Shown here one piece after another: positions 1-18,685 of a stretch of DNA of 20,711 nt. A program made the position numbers and the translations under genes. Source of the DNA: Podochytrium sp. JEL0797. Taxonomy: Eukaryota; Chytridiomycota; Chytridiomycetes; Chytridiales; Chytriomycetaceae. The stretch is taken from NCBI GenBank assembly GCA_027596195.1, contig JADGJG010000414.1, forward strand, positions 1 to 20,711, read 5' to 3'. Position 1 is the first letter of the stretch. Each line of letters starts with the position of its first letter. The notes beneath the pieces are model-generated. The model was given only the letters and a program-made list of their open reading frames with translations. It had not been told where the DNA came from and did not search any database.

Positions 1-2
1 TC

Positions 3-250
3 CAAGTCTTCGCTGCCCGTCAGCCTCATGAAACCGGAACAGAGGGAGATATCTTACTTGACAGAGAGATTCGTCCCAAGTCTGTGTCATCCGACGCCCC
101 GTTCGCCGCATTTCAGACCGCGATCGGCCATTCACCATCGAATCACAGGGCACGCATTCTATCGAGGTTCGTTTGATTTAACCTAATGACATTCTCGTTG
201 TCTGACAGGGCCTGCTGCTTCTCGATCCAACCAATGCGGACTTCAATTAA
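3..250 (+). CDS. 3' end of an unrecognised gene (partial, tentative)
   Basis: A frame open from the window edge (3-170) reads as a mixed, natural-looking peptide (…DILLDREIRPKSVSSDAPF…). Splicing a 38-bp intron (171-208, GTTTGA…CTGACAG) keeps frame and ends in GLLLLDPTNADFN, stop at 248-250. The acceptor and the short length resemble a 35-bp intron in the large nucleoporin gene further along, but the GTTTGA donor is weak. A competing donor at 167 gives another frame with no early stop. The opposite strand also carries a good-looking intron (RC GTAAGA…GGGCAG, about 12-57), so the strand is not certain. I do not recognise the family. Confidence 0.33.
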
Positions 251-995
251 CTTGAGTGGATGCCGCTTCGGCGGTTATATTTTTTCTTTGTCTTCTGTTG
301 TTTCGTTTCTTCTCCATTCTCATTTTGCTCTTCTTTCCTTGATCACTCTTCCTGGGGAGGAAATTCGGGAAATTCAAATCTTCACATTGGGAGTTCTCGG
401 AGATGAAATGGAGTCTTTGGGGTTTTTTGAATGGAGCTCCTGCTCATTTCACTTGCGCTGTCATTCCCTGCATCGACTTGCCTCCCCTGATCATCTTCCT
501 TCTCATATGATGATATCTATTTTTGGGACACACGCAATGGGCCTCTTCAACGCGTACGTGACTACTCCGCCTCCACTCACACCACCTTCCGAGGTACCGC
601 ATAGCTCTCCCGTTCCCCTGGAAATCTCGTCCCGGTATATTCTGATTCACTCAGTTCCTGCAGTTCACAATCTCAAGCGAGTCGAGATGCGGTTGGTGGC
701 TGTCACGTCACGACTTGCATGTTGCTGAAGACGGGAATCATGAAGGAGATCGCGAGCTCAAGGATGTGCAGAAGTTCGAGCTTGAAGGCGCTGTTTCGGA
801 TGTATGGGTCTCGAGGGAAGATGTGGGTGGATCAAATAATGGAGGTTTCAGATTCCGCGTGGGGATGTGCTGGGACAGTTTGAGATTGGGTTTTAGGTGC
901 CCTATCAAAAATGGTTGAAGATGATAATAAGCGAACAGATTAGAAGCACGTTTGAGTTCGGAAGGAAGGAAGAGGTGTCCTCGCTTAAATGAGTC
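245..995 (-). pseudogene. Decayed or unrecognised minus-strand coding stretch, frame-switching
   Basis: No intact ATG-started gene is seen, but the minus strand holds successive long open stretches in different frames that join end to end. 995-738 is open and includes LFAYYHLQPFLIGHLKPNLK and IPTRNLKPPLFDPP. Near 830 the sense shifts by one base into a frame open 834-703, giving HIFPRDPYIRNSAFKLELLH and LELAISFMIPVFSNMQ. About 655-577 gives ELSESEYTGTRFPGERESYA. About 582-503 gives VVTYALKRPIACVPKIDIII. About 443-245 is again open (PFKKPQRLHFISENSQCEDL…). An intron (GTCGTG or GTGACG … AACTGCAG, about 656-712) could bridge segments two and three in frame; the other joins need frameshifts. A decayed gene or repeat fragment fits best. 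The family is not recognised. Confidence 0.4.
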
Positions 996-1205
996 TCAAA
1001 CCGAATTAATTTTCGAGCGCGCCGTGTCGCGACCGAAGTCGTTTCGCTTTTCATGGCTCGTGATGAAACTCCCTTTTCTTGCCTTGTCTAGGAGATGCAT
1101 GGGGCCGTGCAAATACATGCTTCTTTTCTTTCCTGGGTCTTGGCACGGTCTTGTAGCCTTTTTGTTTTTTATAATACAAAGGTTGGAAGGAAAACAAGTC
1201 AAATT

Positions 1206-1216
1206 TTTATTTTATT
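1206..1216 (-). promoter_or_regulatory. Polyadenylation signal of the large nucleoporin gene
   Basis: Two overlapping AATAAA hexamers on the minus strand lie about 45 bp past the nucleoporin stop codon (1258-1260), in an A/T-rich stretch. Position and sequence suit a cleavage/polyadenylation signal. Confidence 0.5.
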
Positions 1217-1257
1217 TTTCACACTGACACATCAACAAAATAAAAGAATAAACAAAT

Positions 1258-3800
1258 TCAGCGATACTGCGAGAACGAAGGTTTTTTGTCACTCGATGGA
1301 GCAGCACCAAACACAGACCCGCCAGAGTTCGAGGCCGCAGCACCGAACGCAGAAGCTTGACTACCGCCACTGCCACCACCAAACACGCTTTGATTCGAAG
1401 TTCTGCAAGAAATAATGAGTTTTCACACCAAAAACGAGCAAAAAACGAATCACACTCACGAAGCAAATCCACCAAAGCCTCCAGCACCAGCACCAGAGCT
1501 CTGACCAAAGACAGACTTGTTCGATGCGACCGACGGGAATCCGGTCGGCGCCACCACAGCTGCAGGGGCTCCAAACCCAGACTGACCAAAGGCTCCACCA
1601 CTCGAGCCGAATCCAGATTGACCGAACGCGGGAGCAGAAGTTTGGCCAAAAGCGGAAGGCGCGGCAGCTTGACCAAAAGCGCTCACGGCAGGATTTGCTG
1701 CTTGCCCACCGAAGGCAGATTGCCCTGGACTTGCTTGTCCGAACGAAGATTGACCGAATGCCGATTGCCCCGCTGGCGGAGCACCGAAAGCAGAGGTAGT
1801 AGCGGTTTGACCAAATGCTGATGGGGCAGTCGCACCACCGAACGCACTGCCACTGGAAGGAGCTGCGGGCTGACCAAATGCTGACTGTCCAAAAGCCGGC
1901 GTGGCATTGTTGCTTCCAAATGCAGGTTTAACGGGAGCAGGTGTGCTAGGCTGACCAAATACTGAAGTCTTCGCACCGAACGGGGAAGCTCCCGAACCTC
2001 CGAATGCTCCAAACGCACTCTGAGAGGACGGCGTAACAGCAGGAGCAGGCGAGACACCCTGAGAAGCGGCAGCCCCAAGGAAAGAAAATCCACTAGCGGC
2101 AGGGGTCGACGGCAGAGATGGTTTTCCAAAGACTGAACCACTACCACCACCAGAGCCGAACACAGAAGTCGAGGCTGAAGCTGTTCCAAAGGCACTTGGT
2201 GCCGGTGTGGATGCAGCAGGAGTCGAAAAAGCACTCGCAAACATCGGGTTCACCTTGTTTTGGGAAGCAGACGGGCCACCAAGACTGAGAGACGCACCAA
2301 AACCCTGAGCAACGGCGGCGGGGACTTCGGGTAGCAGAGCTGCTGGAGCAAGACCAAATGTGTTACTTCCAGTTGAAGGAGCTCCGGCTTCAGGTTTCGT
2401 TGCCCTTTGACGACAATTTTTAGCTTTGTTTTGGAAAGAGGAGGCTGAAAACTCACCCAAACTGAGAAGAACCAATCGGAGTTGGGGTTACAAGAGGGAC
2501 AGTCGCTTTGAACGCTTGAGGGGATCTAATCAACGAGTAAATATCTCGCAAATGACAAAAAATATGACTTACGGTGGAGCAGGTGTAGAATTCGACACCC
2601 CAAAGACGGATGCAGTGGCGGAAGCTCCGACACTCGGAAGAGTTGATGTAAGGCTCTGGCCAAATCCTGTCGCAACCGGGGCAGGCACCACGGGCATGCT
2701 GCTCTTTTCGTCGACAGCAGCAGCATCCTTCAATGTCGCAGAGCCAAATCCTCCACTTGATGGGGCCGCATCCTTGGCTAGAGAAAACGAGAAACCGCCC
2801 TTCATTCCAGTGTCTGTCTTGGAGGCACCGACAAATCCACCAGACACGGGAACCGGTTGAGCAGGCTTCGTTTCACCAAACAGGGAAGGTTTCGCGGGCG
2901 CAATACCGCCGACCCTCTTGGTCTCACACGCAACGCATTGAGTTGCAGAATCGTCGTTGGGAACCATACACGTATCGCACACCCACTTGGCCCCAGAAGT
3001 TGATTTCGGGGCAATCACAGATGGTTCGGCAGCTTCCGTCGCTTTGAAACTGAATCCGCCCGCCGAAGGAGCTGAGGGTTTTGCAGAGGGAGCGAGCGAG
3101 AACCCGCCGGCCACAACTGGTTTCGAATCGGCAAACAGAGACGGCTTTGCTTGCGCGGCTCCACCGACGCGCTTGGTTTCGCATGCGACACACTGAGTAG
3201 CAGAATCTTCGTTGGGAACCATGCAGGTGTCGCACACCCACTTGGCTCCAGGTGAAATCTTTGGCGCAGGGGCGGGAGCTGCAGGCGCAGCTACATCAGA
3301 AGGTTTGAAACCGAACCCACTAGCAGCTGGGGCAAACGAGAATCCACCAGTAGTAGCAGGTTTCGAATCGCCGAACAGAGGCGGCTTTGTTGGCGCGGCT
3401 CCACCGACGCGCTTGGTTTCGCATGCGACACACTGAGTGGCAGAACCCTCGTTGGGAACCATGCAGGTGTTACACACCCACTTGGCTCCAGCTGTAGGTT
3501 TTGCCGCCACCGATGAGGTTCCAAAACCAGCTTGGGTCGCAGGGGCGGGTGCTTTCTGGGCACCGAAGCTGAGTCCGCTAGTAGAAGAAGTTGGTTTGGA
3601 TGCAGGGACAGCGACTGGAGCCTTCGGGCCACCAAAACTAAATCCTTCAGTACTGGGCACGGGCGGTTTGGGCGCAGCGACGGTTGGGGCCGGGGATTTC
3701 GAGGCAACGAAACTGAATCCATCAGTAGATGCCGGAGGTTTGGTCGCAAGGGCGGCGGCAACAGGTTTGGATGCAAAGAAGCCGGCTTTGACGTTGGGCG
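1258..3800 (-). other. C-terminal FG region with three zinc fingers and SxFG repeats
   Basis: Exon 24 carries FxFG motifs and three RanBP2-type fingers near 3421-3486, 3181-3246 and 2926-2991, the first a slight variant (CNTC, NEG). Exons 25-27 carry densely packed SAFG/SVFG repeats (about 1460-2404 and 1258-1402) and end in SFSQYR. Low complexity and repeat homogeneity are typical of FG domains, which bind karyopherins and mRNA exporters. Confidence 0.8.
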
Positions 3801-6800
3801 CCTGAGACGCAACCGACGGTTGTTGACTCGCAGCCTTCGCTTTGGCAGCCTTGGCCGCTTTGGATGCAGAAACCGCAGCATCCTTGAGAGACGTCATAAA
3901 CTGAAGCTGCTTTCGAACCGCGGGGGAAAGTTGAGCAGACGATTTTGGAATCAAATCTCCATCAGAGTCGTCCGAATCAAATTCGGCGGCGAAAGCGTTT
4001 TTGGATTTGATGGGCACGCTCTTCACTTGCTTGCTGGGCGATGTTGAAGGCTTGTAGAGCTGGATCTCTTCCAACATGGCATCAAGCTTCTTGGAAATGG
4101 TAACCGAATGGGAGGTGATTCTTCGAATGTTGCGGCAGAGCGTGTCCCAGTCGGGCAGCCTGAAAGGAAGCAACAATATGAGTGATAAAATATTGGATGT
4201 GTGTGAACATACTTCGCTGCCGTCTTGGCACCGGTCCTGATTTCCAAACCCTCCTTCATTTGAAGCAACGACGCTTTGACTTCCGACAACTCAAGCTCCA
4301 TTTGCTAAAGCGGAGAGAGAAACAGGTTAATTCACATATCAAGTTAGTCAGGGATATTACCTTGACTTTCTTTCGCAACAGACCCTGCAAGTGCGCAAAT
4401 TCTGGCCCCAGCTCGTTCTCAAAGTCCAACAGCTCCCTCGACTCCTTTTTAATGAACTTGAGCAGCTTTGCCGAATGCTCTTGCTTCCCAGAAACTTGAT
4501 GTAAAAAGATGATGTTAGCAACCAGCAAAAAGGCAATAAGTCTTGCGTACTCAATTTCAAGGAGTCCACCAGCTCGTCCTTGCGAGAAACTGTCTTTTCA
4601 CAATCGATTTTCACATGCGTCAACTTCTTGTTCAACTCTGTAATCTGAATGTGGGTCTCTTGCAGAATCTCGGATGAGTTCTTGACAGCCTTGGTGACGA
4701 ATTCGGCAGATGTCGAAACCGTCACGCGCAACTTCAACACAAAATCAGAATCAAACCATCACGACTACGAAAACAAACTTATCCACTCACATCTTTCAAA
4801 TCATCATCCAATTCGGCGCGCATGCGATCAAACAGCCCCAAGTAGTCCGATGGGTCTTGGTATTCTCGCGGCTTTGCCTCGCGTTTCGTAGGCGTGGGGA
4901 CTGCGGTGACGGGAGTGGATTTCGGAGTCGCCGCTTGTGGTTTCACCGGCGCTTTCGCGGTTTCGGGCTTTGGAGTCGACGGAACCGTTTTGGAAGTTGC
5001 TGGTTGGGCCGGGAACGTAAACGAAGCTGCGACCGACGCTTTGGGGGCAGGGTTGACCAACGGAGGTTTTGCGGCAGCTGCTGAAGCGCCAAACACAGCA
5101 CAATCCGGTTTCCCGATCGCAGGAGCTGGGGATCCGAAACTAAACCCTCCTCCCGATGGTGTTTCTGGCTTCGAACCATCCACCGACTTGAAGCTAAATC
5201 CTCCGACAACAGGAGCAGCATTCTTGGGAGCAGTGAAACTAAAACCGCCCGAACCAGAAGTTGGCTCGTTGCCGATCGAATTACCAAACAGCGACGGTTT
5301 CGCTGGAGCAGCACCGCCGACCCGCTTGGTCTCACACGCAACGCACTGAGTCGCAGAATCCTCATTTGGAACCATGCACGTATCGCACACCCACTTGGCT
5401 CCAGAAGTCGATTTAGCAGCAGGAGCGGCGGTCTCAGCAGGCCTGAAGCTGAATCCGCCCGGTGCAGAAGCCGCGGGTTTCGCAGATGGAGCAAAGGAGA
5501 ATCCACCAGCAGACGCAGGTTTGGCGTCCCCAAACAGCGACGGTTTCGCTGAAGTAGCACCGCCGACCCGCTTGGTCTCACACGCAACGCACTGAGTCGC
5601 AGAATCCTCATTTGGAACCATGCACGTATCACAGACCCATTTCGCGACACTCGACGATTTCGGAGCAGGAGCAGAAGGTTTGGCGGTTTCAGTGGGTTTG
5701 AAACTGAATCCGGCAGCAGAAGAAGCTGGAGGCGGCGCTCCAAACGACACGGAAGCCGCGATTCCTGTTGCAAAGCCGAATGCAGGAGCAGCCGGTGGAG
5801 TCGCCGCATCCGGTCCAGGAGCAAATCCCCATTTGAATGCAGGCGCGGGTGACTTTTCAGGATCAATCTTCAGTGAGTTCTGCTTCTGGGTCGGCTGCGC
5901 CAAAAACAAAAATAAGATCGCGTAAAAATTGAGTAACCGACAAAATCACCTTCGAGGCAGATGCAGCTACAACCTCCAAATTCTCCACAGAAGTTCTCAT
6001 TGCCGGACAAGCCACCTCCCTCCCTGCAGTTCCGGCTTCCACAAGGTTGTACACAACAAGGTACCCCGCGCTCGTCAACACGTACAACAACGGCGCAGGA
6101 CACAAGCTCGGTTGATCTGGGAAGCGACTCTTGACGCGTTCCTGGCTCACGAAATCAATACCCAAGCCGACAGGGAACGTTTCGTCGTCGTTCGCGTCGA
6201 GAGGAAGTTGAAGCGGATCGCCCATGCGCCATGTGTTCCATTCGCCGTTTTTGCAGCCAAGGAATCCGATGTCCGTGGAGGCGTGGTTCGCAAAGGGCAT
6301 GAGGTACGTGGAATCCCCGCTGAGAATCGCAATTTAGAATGAGATCGTGAGTACCCGGTGAAAAAAAGGACTCACAGGAACTCCACCAACGCTGGGTAAT
6401 AAAACAAGTCTCGCTCGTCCTTGGGATATGGGCATGGGTTCTCCAATCGGGTATAGGTCGTCTGGATTCCCGTCTTGGCCGTTCCCGACTGAGAAATCAC
6501 ATACGCGGCGCAATCTTCGTCCGTCACGCCATAAATCACGACAAACACTTTGTCTTCCAGCCAAACGATGCTTTGGACTGAGAACAAAAAAAATAACCGA
6601 ATCAGCCAAAACTCAGAGCACTCCGACATTCCAAAAAACAAAACAAACCTCCAATCTCCTTCCCCACCAACCCCGGCGGCACCGCAATCGTATTCTTGAC
6701 CACACCCTCCACCGAAACCTGATTGACAAGTCCCTCCTCATTCCCCACGGCAAGCTGTTTCCCCTTGCGACTCCAACACATGGAAAACACTTCCTCCGCG

Positions 6801-9800
6801 ATCGGGACAAACTCGCTCGACTCAATATTCAGCATACACACGGTGCCATCTCCATAGTTGACGGCACACAGGTGAGGGAAGGCTTCGGGGTTCGGGAGAA
6901 TGACAAAGTTTTCGTCGTTGGGTCCATGGAACTCGTTGGACGGTTCGATTTCACCCTGAATTTCAAAAAACGCACAGAAATCAGACATGATGCTCAAAAA
7001 TCAGAATTGGAGAATATTTACCGAAGCCAGCAGCGATGCTTCGTAAGTCAAAATCGCCCCGGAAGTCAACCCCACGAACACCACCTTCTCGTCCGCCGAC
7101 AGCCGAATCTGGTTCACGAGATAATCCTCCTCATTCAACTCCACTTCGAACTTGGACGCCACTTCAACAACCTGTCTCGAAGAGGCCTTGGATGGAACAA
7201 ACGTTAAAAAACGTCGAACTTCATTCTCCACAAAACAAGATCGAACCTTAGAAATCGTGTCCCTCACGTCCTTGGTCAGTGCGAAGCCGAATCCAGACGC
7301 GGTTCCAAACACCACATATCCAAACTTGTTGGAAACGGCCAAGAGGTCGTAACAGAGTTGCTCATCAGAAGCGTGAGTCTCATTGAGAGATTTCGAAACG
7401 CGAACTTTGACGTCGGATGGAATTTGTCTCGCCTCGATAAACTAATACAAACGGTGGGTGAGAAATGGGAAATTGCAAAACCAGAAGCATCGAAAGTACA
7501 TACGTCAACATCAATCTCTCCCCTCTGCTCCTCTTTGGCCGAATCCACCCCCCGCTTCTTGGCCTCTTTGGTTTTGGGAGCCGGAGCAGCGACGGGGGCC
7601 TGGAAACGAAATCAGGACTCTGGAGCTCAAAAACAAATAAATACAAACCTTCACGACCGGGTCCTCCATCTTCGCGATTGCAGCAGCCAAACCCTCCTCT
7701 TTGACCGCAACCTTCTCAGGAGACTTGTCCCGCTTCGGCACCTCCTCTTTCACAGGAGATGGCGCCTCCAACTTCACAGCCTTCTCGGGAGACTTGTCCC
7801 GCTTCTGCATCGCCTCCTTCACAGGAACTGGCACCTCCAACTTCGCGGAAACACCAGCATCAGCCTCCTTCTTCACCACAGGAACATCAACACCCTCAAA
7901 CTCCTCCACAGAAGCCCGCATCGCCGGACAAGCCACCTCCCTCCCCGCAGTTCCGGCTTCCACCAGATTGTACACAACAAGGCACCCCGCGTTCGTCAAC
8001 ACGTACAACAACGGCGCAGGACACAAGCTCGGTTGATCCGGGAAGATACTCTTCACGCGTTCTTGGCTCACGAAATCAATACTCATGCCGACAGGGAACG
8101 TTTCGTCGTCGTCCGCGTCGAGAGGAAGTTGAAGCGGATCGCCCATGCGCCATGTGTTCCATTCGCCGTTTTTGCAGCCAAGGAATCCGATGTCCGTGGA
8201 GGCGTGGTTCGCAAAGGGCATGAGGTACGTGGAATCCCCGCTGAGAATCGCAATTTAGAATGAGATCGTGAGTACCCGGTGGAAAAAAAGGACTCACAGG
8301 GACTCCACCAACGCTGGGTAATAAAACAAGTCTCGCTCGTCCTTGGGATATGGGCATGGGTTCTCCAATCGGGTATAGGTCGTCTGGATCCCCGTCTTGG
8401 CCGTTCCCGACTGAGAAATCACGTACGCGGCGCAATCTTCGTCCGTCACGCCATAAATCACGACAAACACTTTGTCTTCCAGCCAAACGATGCTTTGAAC
8501 TAAGAAAGAAAAAATACAACCAATCAGCCAAAACTCAGAGCACTCCAAGATTCCAAAAAACAAAACAAACCTCCAATTTCCTTCCCCACCAACCCCGGCG
8601 GCACCGCAATCGTATTCTTGACCACACCCTCCACCGAAACCTGATTGACAAGTCCCTCCTCATTCCCCACGGCAAGCTGTTTCCCCTTGCGACTCCAACA
8701 CATGGAAAACACTTCCTCCGCGATCGGGACAAACTCGCTCGTCTCAATATTCAGCATGCAAACGGTGCCATCGCCATAGTTGACGGCACACAGGTGAGGG
8801 AACGCTTCGGGGTTCGGGAGAATGACAAAGTTTTCGTCGTTGGGTCCATGGAACTCGTTCGACGGTTCGATTTCACCCTGAATTTCAAAAAACAGACAGA
8901 AATCAGCCATTTTGGTCTGAGACGAGAGAACTGAAGACAGCAGAATACTTACAGAGACCAACAGCGACGCTTCGTACGTCAAAATCGTCCCCGAAGTCAA
9001 CCCCACAAACACCACCCTCTCGTCCGCTGACAACCGAATCTGGTTCACGAGATAACCCTCGTCATTCAACTCCACTTCGAATTTCGTCGCAATTTCAACC
9101 GTCTGTCTCGCAGGGGACTTTGCGTTGAACAAAACGTTAAAAATTTTCGAAACCTCATTCTCCCCAAGCAAGACGAACCTTGGAGATCGTGTCCCTCACG
9201 TCCTTGGTGAGTGCGAAGCCGAATCCAGCCGCAGTCCCAAACACCACATATCCAAACTTGTTGGAAACGGCCAAGAGGTCGTAACAGAGTTGTTCGTCCG
9301 AAGCATGCGTGTCATTGAGCGATTCCGAAACGCGAACTTTGACGTCGGATGGAATTTGTCTCGCCTCGATAAACTAAAAGCCGGTGGGTGAGATATTGGA
9401 AAACGGAGAACGACAAGGATTGAAAACACATACATGAACATCAATCTCTCCCCTCTGCTCTTCCTTAGCCGAATCTACACCCCGCTTCTTGGCCTCTTTA
9501 GTTTTGGGGGCAGCAGCGACAGGAGCCTGCAAAAGAAATCAGGACTCGGGAGCTAAAACCGTCGAAAAACAATAAATACAAACCTTCACGACCGGATCCT
9601 CCACTTTCGCGATTGAAGCAGCCAAAGCCTTCTCTTTGACCGCAACCGTCGCAGGAGACTTGTTCCGCTTCGGCACCTCCTCCTTCACAAGCAAAACTGC
9701 CTCCAACTTCACAACCTTCTCGGGGGACTTCTCTCGTTTCTTCGCATCCTCCTCCTCCTCCTCCTCCTCCTTCACAACTTTCGTGATGGGCGACTTGTCC

Positions 9801-12779
9801 CTTTTTTCCACAACCTCCTTCTTCACAGCAACAGGAATCACAGAAGGCGGCGTCTTGACACCAAACGGCGACACCCCAGTCCCCGCAAACGCTCCAAAAG
9901 CGCTCTGCGAAGACGAAACAGCCGGCACCACGGGAGACTTGGCCATCACAGCCACTCCTCCCACCCTCTCCGGGGTTTTATCGCCGTTTTTGACTTCCGC
10001 ACCTCCCGCCTTCGCCCCAAAAGGAGAAGGTCCGCTCCCAGCAAACGCGCCAAACGCGCTCTGCGACGCACCCTTCTTGATTGGAGTCGACGTCGCCGCA
10101 GCCGCGGACCCGAGGAACGAAAAGTCGCCCGTTCCAGTCGACTGTCCGAACGCCGACTGTTGTCCAAACGCTGACGACTGTCCAAACACGGATGTGCCGG
10201 CCGAAGCGAGACCACTCGTTTTGCCAAACACGGAACCACCGCCGCCAGAAGTTGTGCTGGTGAACGCGGACGTTGTAGATCCGAACGCGGAGACGAGCGG
10301 TGCCGCGGGCGCGGGTGCAGGCGAAGCAGCGCTCAGGAACGAGAATCCACCCGTGGAAGCGCCAAAAGGTTTGGGAGCCGCCGCGGGTTCAACTGAAGCA
10401 GCCTCAGTTTCTTCTTTGGCCGCCTCCTCTGACTTCGCGCTTGCTCCAAACCCGAATCCAGTCGAAGCAGCTTCTTTGGGAGCGAAACTGAACCCAGTCG
10501 ACGCCGGATTCCCCTCCTCCTTTGGCACAAAACTGAACCCGCTTCCCACCTCCTTGGCTGCCCCAAACCCAAACCCAGTCGATCCACCAACAGCCGCCGC
10601 CCCAAACACACTCGCCGCACTCGCCGTCACCCCCTTCGCCAACCCAAACCCAGTCGACCCGCCATCCGCCTCCTTCGCCGCCCCACCAAACACAAACCCA
10701 GCATCCTTCGCAGCAGGCGATGGCGGCGCGAAACTGAACCCGCTCGTAATCGAAACAGGATCCCCTTTTTTGACTGCCGTTCCAAACAAGGACGGTTTCG
10801 CATGACCAGCGGAAGCAGGAGCCCAGCTTCCCGCGCGTTTGGTCTCACAGGCGACGCATTGCGTCGCAGAGTCCTCGTTGGGAACCATGCAAGTATCGCA
10901 AACCCATTTTTTGGGAGATGGGGTGGTCGGAGTCGTGATGAGTGGGGCAGGTCGCGCGGGAGATCGGCCTCGCGGTTCAGTGGTGGTGGTGGTGGTGGTG
11001 GGAGTGGGTTGAGAAGTAGAAGGAGCGAGTTTTGGGGTCGCGGGGGTTGTTTTTTCGGGAGACTTTTCGCGTTTCGGACTCGTGGAGGATTTTTTGGAGG
11101 GTGATTTTCCTCGCTTGGGGCTCACGCTCTGTCAAAAAAGTCAGACATATAAATCCAGGGAACTGGAGACGGCAACTCAACTCGTTCCCTAGGCAACTCC
11201 TTCGCCGCTATCATCCCATTGCACACCACATCTCTCCCCGCCGCAGTCGTATCCACCAAATGGTACACAAGCAAGCACCCGGCACTGTTCAACACATAAA
11301 GCAGCGGACCGGCAGGCAAATCGGGCTGGTCTGGGTGAGTCGATTTCAATAGGTCCGTGCTCGTGAAATCCATGTCGAGGCCCATCGGGTACGTGTCATC
11401 GTCGTTCTTGTCGAATGGAAGAGAAATGCTGCTGTCACCGAGGATCCATTTGTTCCAGGCGCCGTTTTGAAGAGCGAGGAAGCCGAACTCGGTGGAGGCG
11501 AAGTTCGCGTACGGGATAAGATAGGAGATGTCGCCCCTGTTGTTTGCACCACGGGTCAGAGAAAGGATACATTCGCCATGGATTCCAAAAACTCACATCG
11601 AGGTCACCAGGGAGTTGAAATAATTGGCGCGCAATCGTCCTTCGGCGGGGAAAGGACATGGGTCTTCGAGTTTCGTGTAGGTGGTCGAGATTCCAGTCTT
11701 GGCTTTCCCACTTTGCGTAATCACGTACGCGTGCGCTTCCTCCTCAATCTGATAGACGACTACGAACGTTTTGTCCTCGAGCCATAGAATGTGTTGGACT
11801 GGCGAAACACAGTCAATAACGTTACAGAAACAAGAAATAAGCGTCACGATTGTTACCTGTCATTGAATCCTCCGCGCAGTTTGGTGGCGGTGGAATCGTG
11901 TTTTTGATGACACCCTGGAGCGTAACTTGTTGCACAACTCCTTTCAGACCGCCAACCGCCAGCTGTTTGCCTTTACGACTCCAGCACATACACGTAATGT
12001 CTTCAAGGGACGACAAGGGGGCGAATTCGGCGGATTCCATGTCGAGCATGAACACGGCACCTCCAGCGCAGAGGATCGCGCATTTGGTGGGGTAAGCTTC
12101 CGGATTTGGGAGCATGACAAAATCTTCTTGGTTTGGGCATTCGAATGATTTGAAGGGGGTGTTGTGTCCCTGTTGAAAGCGCGAAAAGTCGAGGTGAGCA
12201 AAGCAGGTGCAAAATCGTTCACACACCTTTGCCAGCGAGGCAGCCTGATACAGCAAGATCTTTCCCGAGTTGAAGCCAATGCAGACGGTTTCGTGCGAGG
12301 CATTGAGGCGGATTTGGCACACGTGGTCACCGGGCGTTTCGAAGGTTTTTGCACCGGACATGGCGACCCACTGGCGCGGTGCAGCCTGGGGAGAGTGAGT
12401 GAGTTGTTTGCCTAGGTATGTCCAAGAGAGTCCTAGGGATGGCTAGGGATGCCCTAGGGATGCCTAGAGAGGAGGGCCAGAGAAAGCGCACCTGCTTCAG
12501 ACACCGCTGCACGTCCCTGGTCATGGCACAGCCAAAGCCCCTAGACGTGGCATAGACGGCATAGCCAAACACGCTCGACACCGCGAGAAGCGAGTAGTAG
12601 ATGGAGTCCTTGTCCGGCAGCGCGAACGCCTCGCCGACGCGCACCTTGGCCTCGACTGGCTCCTGGCGCAGCTGGAGTGTCTAGGAAAGTGTTAGGAAGT
12701 GCTCCTATGCTTCCTAGCTAGTCCTAGGTACCTCCGTCTGGTGCTGCCCGCCCTCCTTCGAGATGGCTGAGTCGGACAT
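1258..12779 (-). CDS. Giant FG nucleoporin of the Nup159/Nup214 family with three beta-propellers, six RanBP2 zinc fingers and a coiled coil
   Basis: Exons by my splicing (minus): 12779-12732, 12680-12492, 12385-12227, 12169-11857, 11798-11597, 11536-11164, 11128-9584, 9526-9434, 9373-9179, 9117-8953, 8877-8571, 8499-8298, 8240-7649, 7599-7504, 7441-7247, 7186-7022, 6955-6649, 6577-6376, 6319-5950, 5894-4791, 4731-4551, 4494-4361, 4304-4213, 4159-2573, 2525-2457, 2404-1460, 1402-1258. They total 9975 nt, 3324 aa, with all phases consistent. Domains: propeller I ~1-415, FG plus one zinc finger 429-943, propeller II ~975-1375, K-S-P-E-K linker, propeller III ~1494-1892, FG plus two zinc fingers 1907-2274, coiled coil ~2260-2440, FG plus three zinc fingers, then SxFG repeats to the end (SFSQYR). 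In the family, the propeller recruits the DEAD-box helicase Dbp5/DDX19 at the cytoplasmic pore face for mRNA export, FG repeats bind transport receptors, and the coiled coil joins the Nup82/Nup88-Nup62 subcomplex. Known members have one propeller. The start at 12779 is the first ATG, but an acceptor-like TTTTCTCAG just upstream leaves room for an earlier exon. Family assignment is near certain; single-gene status is likely. Confidence 0.85.
3890..4731 (-). other. Coiled-coil segment of the nucleoporin
   Basis: Exons 21-23 and the first part of exon 24 give about 170-180 residues rich in heptad-spaced hydrophobics and charge (for example ELNKKLTHVKIDCEKTVSRK and QMELELSEVKASLLQMKEGL), without FG motifs. 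In Nup159/Nup214 the coiled coil anchors the protein to the Nup82/Nup88-Nup62 subcomplex. Only one such segment is present for three propellers, which suggests a single attachment point. Confidence 0.75.
4791..5894 (-). other. FG region with two RanBP2-type zinc fingers
   Basis: Exon 20, 368 codons. GFSF-type FG motifs alternate with two zinc fingers at about 5576-5641 and 5332-5397, each WVC-x2-C…C-x2-C followed by ETKRVGG. In animals such fingers occur in Nup153 and Nup358/RanBP2 and bind Ran; binding here is inference. The exon ends in a Pro/Lys-rich stretch and YLGLFDRMRAELDDDLKD, which starts the coiled coil. Confidence 0.8.
5950..7599 (-). other. Beta-propeller III of the nucleoporin
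   Basis: Exons 14-19, the same architecture and intron positions as propeller II (matching exon lengths of 195, 165, 307 and 202 nt). Most differences are single substitutions, for example VFGTASGFGF versus VFGTAAGFGF. The exon before it contains a methionine (AKMEDPVVK) but shows no promoter, so translation by splicing from upstream is the simpler reading. It leads directly into the FG, zinc-finger and coiled-coil parts typical of a whole Nup159/Nup214. Confidence 0.85.
5970..7810 (-). repeat. Tandem duplication, copy 2 (propeller III unit)
   Basis: This block matches 7891-9745 along its whole length with an offset of 1921 bp at one end and 1930-1936 bp at the other. The match covers exons and introns alike: GAGGTACGTGGAATCCCCGC recurs at 6301 and 8222, and the intron beside it is nearly the same in both. 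The unit comprises the K-S-P-E-K linker, the K-T-K-E-A-K-K-R-G exon and a propeller. Scattered base changes and small indels show true copies that have begun to diverge. Confidence 0.9.
7891..9745 (-). repeat. Tandem duplication, copy 1 (propeller II unit)
   Basis: Partner of the 5970-7810 block. Intron positions and most intron bases are kept, so the duplication was genomic and not by retroposition, and is recent compared with the split from propeller I. Confidence 0.9.
8220..9526 (-). other. Beta-propeller II of the nucleoporin
   Basis: Exons 8 to 13 (the propeller part of exon 13 runs to about 7910; the position given covers most of it). It opens with a K-T-K-E-A-K-K-R-G linker exon that has no methionine, then FIEARQIPSDVKVRV, the CWSRKGKQLAVGN blade, IVWLEDKVFVVIY, WRMGDPLQLPLD and PAPLLYVLTNAG. 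There is no candidate start codon before the propeller, so it cannot be made as a separate complete propeller protein. Nearly identical to propeller III, including intron sequence and intron positions. Confidence 0.85.
9584..11128 (-). other. FG/zinc-finger exon after propeller I
   Basis: One 515-codon exon. Order: basic S/P-rich start with repeated K-S-P motifs, a Thr run from a (GTG)n tract near 10980-11002, one RanBP2-type zinc finger near 10846-10911 (C-x2-C-x10-C-x2-C with Trp and Asn in place), FxFG-type and SAFG repeats, then lysine-rich K-S-P-x-K linkers with a seven-Glu run (GAG/CTC microsatellite, 9748-9768). The exon has no coiled coil and no stop, and runs through VEDPVVK into the intron that leads to propeller II. 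FG repeats act as the permeability and docking phase of the pore. Confidence 0.8.
11164..12680 (-). other. Beta-propeller I (diverged copy) of the nucleoporin
   Basis: Exons 2-6 encode a Nup214/Nup159 propeller. Landmarks are FGYAVYATSRGFGCAMTRDV, the CWSRKGKQLAVGG blade, IPPPP, LWLEDKTFVVVY, NKWILGD…LPFDKNDDDTYPMG and PAGPLLYVLNSAG. The same signature order is present in propellers II and III, but the protein is clearly diverged from them and its introns are unrelated in sequence, so this copy split off earlier. It alone begins at an ATG. Confidence 0.85.
12386..12491 (-). repeat. Intron 2 with short CCTAGGGATG-type tandem repeats
   Basis: On the plus strand, 12430-12466 reads as about four imperfect 10-12 base units of (C)CTAGGGATG. 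CCTAGG also occurs at 12413 and in intron 1 (12723, next to the splice donor), where GCTAGTCCTAGG is found. The A/B propeller introns lack this motif. Confidence 0.6.
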
Positions 12780-12839
12780 TTCTTTCTCCAGTTTCTTTGA
12801 CTGAGAAAACAAAAAGAAAACAAATCCAGTCACCCATCA

Positions 12840-13703
12840 ATGCCCAGATTAATGCCCCACTCATCCGATGAACCCCTCGAGACCCATATACCCCCCCACA
12901 TTGTTCAGCTCATCTTCTCCTGGATCCACCCTGCCACGGCCATGCGCTATGCCCTGCTGTCCAGGGACATTCGCGAATGTCTTCGCGATCCGCACTTTGC
13001 CATGCTCAACATTGTGCGCTTCGTTTCACTGCGCGATCCCTCCAAAACCCACTGGCCAGACGAGTTCGACCGTCTGTGGTTCAAGTGGCCGAAACTCTAT
13101 CAGCGGGTCTATGCCGCCTTCGCACTCAAACCGCTGAACAAACTCGACTGGCGGGGCATCAACGCCCTGCGTCGATCCATCCCCAGAGCAATCGGATCGC
13201 TGTCATCTCTGACATCCCTGAACCTCGGCTCGAGTCGTTTGATTGGCCCAATTCCGCCGCAGATTGGCAAACTCACAAGCCTCGTTCATCTTTCCCTCAC
13301 TTGGAACCACCTCGAAGGCCATATACCCCCAGAACTCGGCAACCTGGTCAACCTCACATCCCTTTCACTCGCCGAAAACAACCTCCAAGGCCCCATCCCT
13401 GCCGAACTCGGAAACCTTGCTTTCCTCGAATCACTCGACCTGAGCTCCAATTCACTGCATGGCGCCATTCCTGTGCAAATAGGAGGACTCGTAAACTTAC
13501 GGTCGATGCTTCTACAAAACAACATGCTGTCGGGGTCAATCCCGGAGGAGATTGCGTGTTTGGTGAATCTCACGGAACTGAACATATACGAGAACGCGTT
13601 TGAAAAGTGGGTGATTCCTGCTAGAGTTTCTCCCGACTCTTCCATGTTTCTTTTGCTGCGCAAGATTGGGTTCTATTGTGAGGGAGAAAACACGTGGCGA
13701 TAA
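12840..13703 (+). CDS. F-box-like leucine-rich repeat protein
   Basis: Single exon, 287 aa. Residues ~17-50 ([20 protein letters not shown]…[10 protein letters not shown]) resemble a short F-box-like helix set. From about residue 100 there are about six LRRs of the plant-type pattern LxxLxxLxLxxNxLxGxIPxxLGNL. LRRs of this type bind proteins; an F-box would tie it to an SCF ubiquitin ligase, but that domain call is weak. The ATG at 12840 is used; one at 12852 is also possible. The start is 60 bp from the divergent nucleoporin start, so the two probably share a promoter. AATAAA at 13749-13754 could end the transcript. No signal peptide or membrane segment is seen. Confidence 0.8.
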
Positions 13704-13844
13704 CCAGGTGCTAATGGGCCTTTTTAGGCGTATAACCAATAGATAGAAAATAAAAACAAATCAAAAATTCCATCACGAGAGGAGGAAGAAGGATTTCCAT
13801 AAGAAAGAATGGCCGGGTGGCCTTCATTCGATGACAGGTAACGA

Positions 13845-13970
13845 GAGAGGCTTTTCGTCGCTGGATCTGTGGAACTCGTTCGACGGTTCAGTTTAGCTCT
13901 AGTTTTCGAAACAGTAGCGGGGAGTTTATGCTCCAAAACGGCTGTGGTAACGATTTTGGAGAAAGTTTAT
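13845..13970 (-). pseudogene. Relic of the nucleoporin propeller exon/intron boundary
   Basis: GGAACTCGTTCGACGGTTC at 13870-13888 is identical to propeller II at about 8850-8868, and the flanks match with scattered changes (TTTTCGTCGcTGGaTC versus TTTTCGTCGtTGGgTC). The minus strand reads EPSNEFH..SDE, against EPSNEFHGPNDENF in the intact copies. Downstream, bases up to about 13970 recall the intron of propeller III (ATGCTC(C)AAAA … TTGGAGAA). It is too short and altered to be functional. Confidence 0.65.
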
Positions 13971-14618
13971 TTGAGAGGGAGGTGGGGGCACCGTTGGGGT
14001 CACGCCGATACGCGTTTTTCCATTCTTCTACATTTTCTTATGTTCTCCTGAAACTCCGACTTTATGAATTCGGGGTTGGAAATGAGTGAAATTGTGAGGC
14101 GCAGGCAAAAGGGAAGCGGCGTTTTTTGACAGCTCGAAAAACAAGATCTCTCAAACACCCGATCCTTCCCCACTTGCTTGCAGTGTTGTTTCCGCTTGGT
14201 TAGACTCTCTCATTCCGGGAAAATGGAAGTACCACCCGCGATGGTTGGTTATCACCGTTAATCGGCAGGTTACTATTGATATTGGGGGGGCTGCCCCCTC
14301 CCCATTTGTTTGACGGACTTGTCTGGGAGCCTTCTCGCGGCGTCCGTTGTGAGTAGGAGATGTTCGCCTCTCCGAAGCCAATGCCCAGATCTGTTTGTTT
14401 TTTGACAGTTGTTTTTTTGTTTTCTTTTCGCGTTTGATCTGAGCCCAATAAAGTATTTCAATATTCACGTGTATCATTCGATTAGTTCCTCGTGGAGGTG
14501 ATGTGGGTGAAAGAGAGTGCAGAAGCGCGGGCATTTCTGCGAAAAAATAAAACAAAACACGATAATTTCGGGTTTGCTTGATGCGTGTCAAGGTCGATTC
14601 GTAAAAAACATTCGCTGA

Positions 14619-14624
14619 TTTATT
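14619..14624 (-). promoter_or_regulatory. Polyadenylation signal of the acidic LRR gene
   Basis: AATAAA on the minus strand, 55 bp past the stop codon at 14679-14681. Confidence 0.5.
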
Positions 14625-14678
14625 CATACCCAAGAATCAGAGAGGCAGAAGCCCATTCACACACAATTCATCAAAACA

Positions 14679-15839
14679 TCATTCAACCGCCAACATGGAA
14701 TGCTTCAATTTCCTCCCCGCATTTCTCGACCCCTTGACATGCTTTTCCTTCTCTTTGCGTTCAAACGAATCCATATCTCTCTGCAATCTCCTTGCCTCCC
14801 TTGTCTCCGAAACGCTCTCACTCGCCGAATCGTCATCCGTCGTGTTCATATCCTCGTTCTGGTGGTACCTTTTGGACAAATACTTGACAAACACGGGATC
14901 CTTGGCCGCCAACAAGCGTTGAAACTGACCCTCGAGTTCCGCCACATCCTCCAAATCGCGCACCATTTTCATGAATTTGCGCAGTTTCAGCGCCACATCT
15001 TCCAAGAGATCGTGGCGTTTGTGAACCGAACGCGAATGCTGGAACGATGAATCGTGGCTCGAGGTTTCGTCTTCATCATCATCGTGTGTGGTTTCATCAT
15101 GACTCGCGTTCGCGTCATACGCGTCGTCATCGTCCCGTTCGTTGTCATCACTCTCCACCTCCTCCGATCCACCCCGCACACGACGCACGGAACCAGGCTC
15201 CACAAACTCGACACTCTCGTCGTCAATAAACACAGCCACCTTGTGCCGAATGGGTCCAAACGCGGAGGGCACTTGACTCCCGGCGAGGCCTTCGTTTTGC
15301 GAAAAGTCGAGCACGAGGAGGGATTCCATGTCGGCGAGGATCGAGGGGATGCTGGTGACTTCGTTGTGGTTCATGTCGAGGTATTGGAGGTGTGGGAACA
15401 CGTTGGCGAGGTTCGGGGGGACTTGGGTGAATTGGTTGTGACCGCTGTGTGTGGTGGAGGGATGGGTGGTGAGTTATGGTGAGTGGGTTGTAAAGGTGGC
15501 CAAGTTGCTGGGGGCGGCGGGGGTATCACTCTTATGACAGCGCGCGATGTCGAGGGATTACGTGACACATGAGATATAAACGACACGGAATACTCACAGC
15601 AGCAAGGCGTGCAGGTTAGTTAGGTCCCAGGCATCTTCGGGCAACAATGAGAGATTCAGGTTGGACAGATCGAGGAAACCGGAACGTTTTGCCTCCGAAA
15701 CGCGCTGGCGAACAGTCTTCGAGTCCTGGGCGTGGAGAGCATCTTGGTGCGAGGATTTCTGGCCTTTGTGCGAGGCAACGGCGGCGGCTTGGCGGTCGCC
15801 GCGCTTTCCGGTTCGTGGTGAGCCAGAGCGGGAATTCAT
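14679..15839 (-). CDS. Leucine-rich repeat protein with acidic, disordered C-terminal half
   Basis: Two exons, 15839-15598 and 15444-14679, joined across a 153-bp intron (GTGAGT…CACAG) in phase; 335 aa. The join restores an LRR, LHALLLGHNQFTQVPPNL. Residues 1-50 are basic and polar; ~52-130 hold about three to four LRRs (LDLSNLNLSLLPEDAWDL, YLDMNHNEVTSIPSILADM, LLVLDFSQNEGL). The rest is Asp/Glu/Ser/His-rich (for example DDDDAYDANASHDE) with a helical, charged segment (LRKFMKMVRDLEDVAELEGQ) and a lysine-rich end. No transmembrane or signal segment is seen, so it is probably cytosolic or nuclear and binds proteins. No named orthologue is recognised. It is divergent from the uL29m gene, with 156 bp between starts. 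Confidence 0.85.
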
Positions 15840-17480: not shown

Positions 17481-18685
17481 ATGAGCGGCAAATCGATGCG
17501 ATTGTCTTTCAAGGGCGACAAGCCAAAGTATGTCGCTTGCTCCTTCTTTCTCTCCTTATTTTAGGGATCCATCAGAGGGGCGAGAGTAGCGCCACACTCG
17601 AAAACTGCGCATTGCCTTGACGTTAACCCCCACCTCTCATTCCCCGCACACTCACCAACCACCCATCCATACTCCACCAAAACTCACCAACCTCCAATCC
17701 AGAAAGAAAAGAAAAACCACCTCCGACCGCACTAAAAACGGCTCCGACGACGACCTCCCCACCTCCACCACCACAGACAGCACATCCCAATGGTCAACAG
17801 CAACCGACATCTCCCACTTCATGGGCCCCCTCCTCCTCCTCTCCACCGCAACCCCACACCCCTCCTGTCTCGTTGTGAACGAGAAAACAAACGCACTCGC
17901 GTTGCAGAGCCTCGGCCCGGATCCCGACGTTGTCCTCTCGACTGTGGAACCTGTGCATGTCGGGCAGGTGTTTTTGGCGGCTCGGTTACCCACGGGAGAG
18001 GCCCGCGTTTCCATCAAGAGCGCGTTCGACATGTACCTCTCCTGCGACAAATTCGGAGAAGTCACGTGTGAGAAGGAAGCTGTGGGTCCCTACGAGGAAT
18101 GGGAAGTCGTGAAGCGCGAGGACGGATGGATTCTCCAGAGTGTCGTCAAGAACGCGTATTTGTCTGCGGAGCCGGATGGGAAGGACGATGCGTCGGTGGA
18201 TGAGGACGCGAGGAAGCGGATTGCGATGGGGAAGACGGGGTGGGGTGTGGGTGCTGGGAGAGTGTGTGGGAGTGTGAGGGCTGATGCGGAGACGGTTGGG
18301 TTTCGGGAGGTGTTTCAGGTGTGTTGGTTGTATTTCGCGATTTTTAGGTAGGATTGCTCACGTTGGCGTCACCCCCCGCGTAGATTCGTTGTCACACGCA
18401 AAACAAAATCAACGCGCACAAGAAAAAGAAGAAGGAGATGGAGGATTTGGATTCCGCCGCAGTCGATGCGGATCAGCTCAAAAAGTTTCAGAGTTATGGG
18501 CGCACGCAAATGAATGAGAAGGAAGCTGCGATTTTGAAGCGTGCGCAGAAGCAGGGGAATTTGAATGAGGCCTTGTTGGAGAGGCGGGAGAAGGTTTGGT
18601 TTTTTTTTTTGGTTTTTTGGTTTGTTTCAGTTTTCTAATCGATTCTTTTGGATGATAGATCAAGGCGGATCGGTACTGCAAATGA
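17481..18685 (+). CDS. FRG1: FRG1 family protein (actin-bundling / pre-mRNA-associated)
   Basis: Exons 17481-17527, 17703-18318, 18384-18593 and 18659-18685; 299 aa with phases consistent. A 47-nt first exon gives MSGKSMRLSFKGDKPK, and the second continues KKRK, matching the lysine-rich FRG1 N-terminus. The beta-trefoil (fascin-like) FRG1 domain spans about 50-235 (KSAFDMYLSCDKFGEV, KEAVGPYEEWEVV). The tail is the family signature: RCHTQNKINAHKKKKKEME, then EALLERREKIKADRYCK. In animals FRG1 is nuclear/nucleolar, co-purifies with spliceosomes and binds actin and RNA. The first intron is long for this locus (175 bp, C-rich). It is divergent from SDHAF4 with only 52 bp between starts. Confidence 0.93.

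Follow-up and report, generated by a model that had tools for sequence, protein, structure and literature searches.

The 20,711-nt window analyzed here is the whole of contig JADGJG010000414.1 (C351) in the 24.4-Mb, 995-contig draft genome of the chytrid Podochytrium sp. JEL0797. Its minus strand carries a gene (12779..1258) encoding a nucleoporin in which three Nup159/Nup214 beta-propellers stand in series ahead of one coiled-coil anchor. This architecture of three propellers and one anchor in one gene is near certain. On our reading, to which we assign a probability of about 0.6, the product is one cytoplasmic nucleoporin of the Nup159/Nup214 type whose propeller, of the helicase-docking kind, was multiplied in series while the pore anchor remained single. 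The single gene, as proposed in the original prediction, is supported by the intron phases, the conservation between duplicate copies, one poly(A) site, a single-protein prediction in GenBank, and serial propellers in five other species of Chytriomycetaceae.

The final exon model was curated by hand, in part from copy-to-copy homology; two automatic exon searches, which gave first 63 exons (over-split) and then 22 exons (misjoined), were set aside. The curated coding region comprises 27 exons, 9,957 nt, and 3,318 amino acids (aa). It opens with an ATG at 12779, its stop codon ends at 1258, and the spliced frame contains no internal stop; all 26 introns are of the GT-AG type and 47–106 nt long. 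This model bears out the original prediction of a 27-exon minus-strand gene in which three full propellers read through in a single frame consistent with splicing, with no stop between propellers I and II. The predicted coding length of 9975 nt was too great by 18 nt, an excess that fits an intron 6 donor at 11163, taken from an automatic search and leaving a 35-nt intron, instead of the donor at 11181. The GenBank prediction (HDU98_007720; P0001) is likewise one protein, of 3,338 aa, and its sole difference from our model is 20 residues of unspliced intron 15. As the counterpart intron in propeller II is 61 nt long and cannot be read in frame, intron 15 was treated as spliced out. An acceptor-like AG lies just before the nucleoporin ATG, so a further exon upstream is possible.

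On the minus strand of 1–12960, AATAAA occurs at positions 1216 and 1211 only, directly past the stop codon, in agreement with the earlier claim that no poly(A) signal lies between the propellers; one ATTAAA was found at 4453. The chance of an open frame was evaluated by resampling under a dinucleotide model (2,000 trials per exon). Exon 7 (1,545 nt) was open in 0/2,000 resamplings and exon 13 in 2/2,000. The short linker exons 8 and 14 were open in 418 and 1,184 trials, respectively; being often open by chance, their openness alone proves nothing, and their weight comes from conservation between the copies. Antisense to exon 7, a 409-codon open frame was observed at 9576–10805 (plus strand), perhaps a by-product of repetitive coding sequence for phenylalanine–glycine (FG) repeats. 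The features of the gene, in the direction of transcription, are as follows:

11203..12680, minus strand: propeller I (aa 17–415, exons 2–6; human Nup214, E 9.7e-24)
9374..11202, minus strand: linker I–II (aa 416–968, exons 7–8), with KR-KSP-rich stretches, one zinc finger, and 18 FG
10835..10915, minus strand: RanBP2-type zinc finger 1 (PF00641)
7910..9373, minus strand: propeller II (aa 969–1368, exons 9–13)
7442..7909, minus strand: linker II–III (aa 1369–1487), charged, with KRDKSPEK repeats and no FG
5989..7441, minus strand: propeller III (aa 1488–1887, exons 15–19; human Nup214, E 7.1e-25)
7187..7246, minus strand: intron 15 (60 nt), kept as 20 residues by the GenBank prediction
5568..5642, minus strand: RanBP2-type zinc finger 2 (PF00641)
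5322..5396, minus strand: RanBP2-type zinc finger 3 (PF00641)
3970..4814, minus strand: single coiled coil of the Nup159 anchor type (about aa 2261–2467, exons 20–24; profile match)
1258..3969, minus strand: C-terminal tail, FG-rich (39 FG in aa 2481–3318), with three zinc fingers
3409..3489, minus strand: RanBP2-type zinc finger 4 (PF00641)
3169..3249, minus strand: RanBP2-type zinc finger 5 (PF00641)
2914..2988, minus strand: RanBP2-type zinc finger 6 (PF00641)
1206..1216, minus strand: two overlapping AATAAA poly(A) signals, the sole AATAAA in 1–12960 of this strand

A propeller profile of 405 positions matched the GenBank protein three times, over profile positions 2–405, 1–404, and 1–404, so that each propeller is practically complete. 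When the sequences of solved structures were searched, human Nup214 came first for propellers I and III (E values listed above) and for a profile of all three (2e-31). The family core motifs CWSRKGKQLAVG and DD-T-P-G are kept in propellers I, II, and III. FG dipeptides occur 72 times along the chain. It also carries six RanBP2-type zinc fingers, an addition to the original prediction: one finger lies in linker I–II, two lie between propeller III and the coil, and three lie past the coil. The nearest PDB sequence matches of one of them were the RanBP2/Nup358 and Nup153 fingers. A pattern search found seven KR-KSP motifs, all within the two inter-propeller linkers. The earlier claim that a single coiled coil anchors the whole chain agrees with the profile search, which detected one coil. 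This profile, built from the stronger matches and applied at E < 1e-3, detected the Nup159-type coil exactly once in each of 51 of the 180 propeller proteins described below, near the C-terminus in ascomycete Nup159 proteins, and it also matches basidiomycete Nup159 proteins. The coil alone gave no significant match in PDB or Pfam.

Comparison of the repeats demonstrates that propellers II and III are copies from an in-frame tandem duplication of about 1.93 kb, whose two units are as follows:

7885..9753, minus strand: tandem duplication unit with propeller II (period about 1.93 kb; repeat families D4–D9)
5964..7818, minus strand: tandem duplication unit with propeller III (from repeat comparison)

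The two propellers are 94% identical in protein sequence, with a synonymous divergence (dS) of 0.17 and a ratio of nonsynonymous divergence (dN) to dS of 0.17 over 400 codons. Their exons have diverged by about 7% and their introns by 13%; the exon pairs remain in frame, with one codon of gap in six pairs, and gaps occur in all six intron pairs. Linker exons 8 and 14 differ by 10 synonymous changes and 1 replacement. From about 8883 to 8104, propeller II is about 98% identical in DNA to propeller III, and this patch includes an intron pair with no mismatches and one gap; its flanks have a dS of 0.25–0.30. A gene-conversion tract over an older duplication would be the simplest reading of this pattern. 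Propeller I shares only half of its residues (50% identity) with II and III, and synonymous sites are close to saturated in this comparison; all three propellers have intron phases and corresponding intron places in common.

Serial propellers were also found in relatives, where the original prediction had suggested looking for the same order. Three protein searches were performed, each scoring about 8,000 candidates that shared most words; the matches listed were 16 of 16, the best 120 of 123, and the best 120 of 395. They comprised 240 distinct proteins. The propeller profile matched 180 of these at E < 1e-3 and the remaining 60 were set aside, so the counts refer to this list and not to a genome census. 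One propeller was present in 173 of the 180 proteins, two in 4, three in 2, and four in 1, and all seven multi-propeller records belong to Chytriomycetaceae (five genera). Beside Podochytrium with three, these are Physocladia obscura HK100_007553 (two), Entophlyctis luteolus P0004 (two, the first incomplete), Siphonaria JEL0065 HDU68_008173 (two, the first with a missing piece), Chytriomyces confervae CcCBS67573_g05788 (four, with a mutual identity of 38–45%), and C. hyalinus HDU81_000145 and HDU81_007448. Of the two C. hyalinus predictions, P0005 breaks off within propeller 2 and P0018 starts within it; side by side they fit four. The Siphonaria record, flagged UNVERIFIED_CONTAM, begins in a zinc-finger region like the Podochytrium linker I–II, so a further propeller upstream is possible.

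These multi-propeller relatives also have RanBP2-type fingers, and each of the five records that reach the coil region has one coil; the relatives differ in propeller number (two to four) and in their linkers. Their public predictions are mostly named hypothetical proteins, and one is named E3 SUMO-protein ligase RanBP2. The only known single-propeller protein of Chytriomycetaceae among the 180 is P0131 from C. hyalinus, an 831-aa protein on a 4-kb contig that is marked partial. In Chytridiales sp. JEL 0842 (P0011), the prediction holds only a partial propeller and may be incomplete. The chytrids examined outside the family (Fimicolochytrium, Homolaphlyctis, Batrachochytrium salamandrivorans, Quaeritorhiza, and Blyttiomyces) have one propeller. 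RanBP2-type fingers were also observed on single-propeller Nup214-like proteins (P0013, P0132, P0133, P0136, and P0230), including those of Coemansia, Blyttiomyces, Piromyces, and the oomycete Peronospora; these share the propeller and fingers with the Podochytrium protein but have one propeller, so fingers on Nup214 may predate the propeller expansion. For three Chytriomyces proteins (P0134, P0138, and P0139), the precomputed Pfam lists hold PF00638, PF00641, and PF08911 together, which stand for the RanBP1 type, the RanBP2 finger, and Nup50, respectively.

In a tree of 29 propellers, all serial propellers formed one group (99/96), apart from the single ones. Within it, Chytriomyces propellers 1–4 grouped weakly (89/75), the other serial propellers grouped together (97/94), and within-species pairs were formed by Podochytrium II and III (100/100) and Siphonaria 1 and 2 (99/91). 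One ancestral duplication giving rise to all first propellers was weakly rejected in the approximately unbiased (AU) test (p = 0.029 when five first propellers were grouped; p = 0.037 for a group of the remaining 12). The first propeller of Siphonaria was not among the five, its record seeming to lack the 5′ part. A single clade of the first propellers of Podochytrium, Physocladia, and Entophlyctis was not rejected (p = 0.13). These groups were picked with the tree already in view, and gene conversion might give the same pattern; the data are compatible both with several duplication rounds, a part of them independent, and with strong concerted evolution. As the relatives have two to four propellers, Chytriomycetaceae seems to have raised the propeller number per pore protein more than once.

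We next consider what the additional propellers may do. According to PMC5998080, human Nup214 recruits DDX19 to the cytoplasmic side of the pore through its N-terminal domain, which can also act jointly with Gle1 to stimulate the helicase. The Podochytrium genome has kept Gle1 and a partner of the Nsp1/Nup62 type, each matched on one contig. In the mechanism we propose, the coil would anchor the chain at the pore in the manner of Nup159, and the propellers would stand on KR-KSP linkers that look phosphorylatable. More than one propeller may hold Dbp5/DDX19, giving several docks per anchor; since each chain has three propellers to one coil, an anchor could offer triple the number of helicase sites. 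Several docks would raise the local concentration of helicase for messenger ribonucleoprotein particles exiting the pore. The zinc fingers, by analogy with those of Nup358 and Nup153, might hold Ran-GDP at the same pore face. As the KR-KSP motifs look like proline-directed kinase sites, the state of the linkers might be regulated. The fold and family are established by the matches above, whereas docking of Dbp5/DDX19 by each propeller is inferred.

Several observations weigh against this reading. The first concern two helicase contact positions of human Nup214 that were compared, R348 and D359. At the R348 position, R was present in none of the 16 serial propellers covering the loop, compared with 5 of 11 single propellers; it is also absent in single-propeller chytrids such as Fimicolochytrium and Batrachochytrium. 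At the D359 position, D was present in 9/16 serial versus 10/11 single propellers, and in Podochytrium the residue is D in propeller I and E in II and III. These positions speak against an unchanged docking face, and the evidence on contact residues appears mixed. Propeller I, at 50% identity to II and III, need not have an equal function. The dN/dS of the 8883–8104 patch carries little information because of its gene-converted look, and the linker stretch before exons 8/14 (52 codons, dS 0.27, dN 0.12) is under looser constraint. Finally, the original prediction had excluded a start codon between propellers I and II; the linking exon 8 indeed lacks methionine, but exon 7 has in-frame methionines (residues 503 and 817), and the sequence is therefore compatible with an additional start inside the gene.

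The contact residues lend weight to a serious alternative, which we consider appreciably below even odds: one gene and one protein, but with repurposed propellers, of which at most one docks Dbp5 and the others are spacers, self-association domains, or binders of different partners, perhaps at the base of the flagellum. The absence of R348 and the partial loss of D359 fit this explanation, as does the divergence between propellers I and II and among the four C. confervae propellers (38–45% identity). Chytrids have flagellated spores. In human cells, Nup214 is reported at the base of cilia (PMC8421043). Repurposing is countered by the retention of both core motifs in all three propellers and by propellers II and III, which, being 94% identical and constrained, probably share one function.

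Several transcription units, in which separate mRNAs arise from promoters within the locus and the joined frame is a by-product of tandem gene duplication, are very improbable. The tandem duplication is real, and further in-frame methionines at residues 1402 and 1449 add to those of exon 7. However, the spliced frame has no stops and no AATAAA lies between the units, linker exons 8 and 14 are under codon constraint, and predictions from five other species have the serial order with two to four propellers. Moreover, each duplicated unit begins in a linker and not at a start codon, so a lone copy would have no beginning. An artefact of assembly or gene prediction, in the form of chained haplotypes or a falsely fused gene, to which the 995-contig draft and the flagged Siphonaria record might point, has a negligible probability, as the divergence of II and III in exons and introns is too great for a read-level duplicate and serial propellers also occur in the Physocladia, Entophlyctis, C. 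confervae, and C. hyalinus assemblies.

Outside the nucleoporin gene, the window contains a divergent leucine-rich repeat (LRR) gene, perhaps of the F-box type; if its first ATG at 12840 is used, it starts 60 bases from the nucleoporin start, which implies a tiny shared promoter or an overlap of the two genes. The neighboring genes further include an LRR gene (14679–15473, minus strand), mitochondrial ribosomal protein L47 (15885–16931, plus strand), and an FRG1-like gene split into two or more pieces (17590–18638, plus strand). Elsewhere in the genome, contig C760 (1063–2145 and 11136–12300) holds propeller exons with intron remains, a zinc-finger/coil region, and pieces like 13.2–14.5 kb and 4.5–5.7 kb of the window. 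A second genomic copy of the gene was rejected: the exons on C760 are broken by stops and frame changes and are shuffled, as in a decayed segmental copy. Upstream of the nucleoporin gene, 13848–13911 contains a 60-nt relic with 78% similarity to 8831–8890, where intron 10 ends and exon 11 begins; the stretch around the relic is also on C760. A short dispersed repeat lies at 14296–14508; a query of 13700–14700 matched 26 pieces in the genome, including itself, mostly at this repeat.

Nup214/CAN of animals and Nup159 of yeasts share the propeller family PF16755 and FG repeats with the Podochytrium protein, whose coiled coil is of the fungal Nup159 type. The Podochytrium protein has a propeller of the seven-bladed type, FG repeats, and the coiled-coil anchor, but differs from the usual one-propeller form (173/180 listed proteins) in its three propellers and added zinc fingers. 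RanBP2-type fingers are shared with the arrays of Nup358/RanBP2 and Nup153, here on a Nup214 backbone. The precomputed Pfam list of the GenBank protein contains no RanBP1-type domain (PF00638), no cyclophilin, and no Nup153-specific domain (PF08604). Identity with Nup358 was ruled out by the absence of RanBP1-type and cyclophilin domains from this list; no search was made for the helical N-terminal part of that protein. In searches of open-licence literature, no listed title concerned serial, variable-number propellers on one anchor. We regard the protein as a variant: each of its parts is familiar, and what appears to be new is the placing of propellers in series, in variable number, on a single anchor.

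Nup214/Nup159 is known as a one-propeller protein, the helicase docks per pore are taken to follow its copy number, and the Ran-type zinc-finger role is usually credited to animal Nup358. The clade-wide, variable-number family found here goes beyond the single case of the original prediction and places Ran-type zinc fingers on a fungal Nup214. Tentatively, and at a little under even odds, we propose that the cytoplasmic export platform of the pore in one chytrid family is a variable-number array: the propeller, as helicase dock, would have been multiplied repeatedly and partly independently (two, three, or four per chain) on one invariant anchor, with the chain also gaining Nup358-like Ran-GDP-binding fingers. 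Propeller number would then be an evolvable valency that sets Dbp5 per pore without changing pore stoichiometry. With members that reach four propellers on one anchor, the clade is a natural series in which to ask whether mRNA export is limited by the recruitment of Dbp5, a variation in dock number that would be hard to obtain so cleanly in yeast or human cells.
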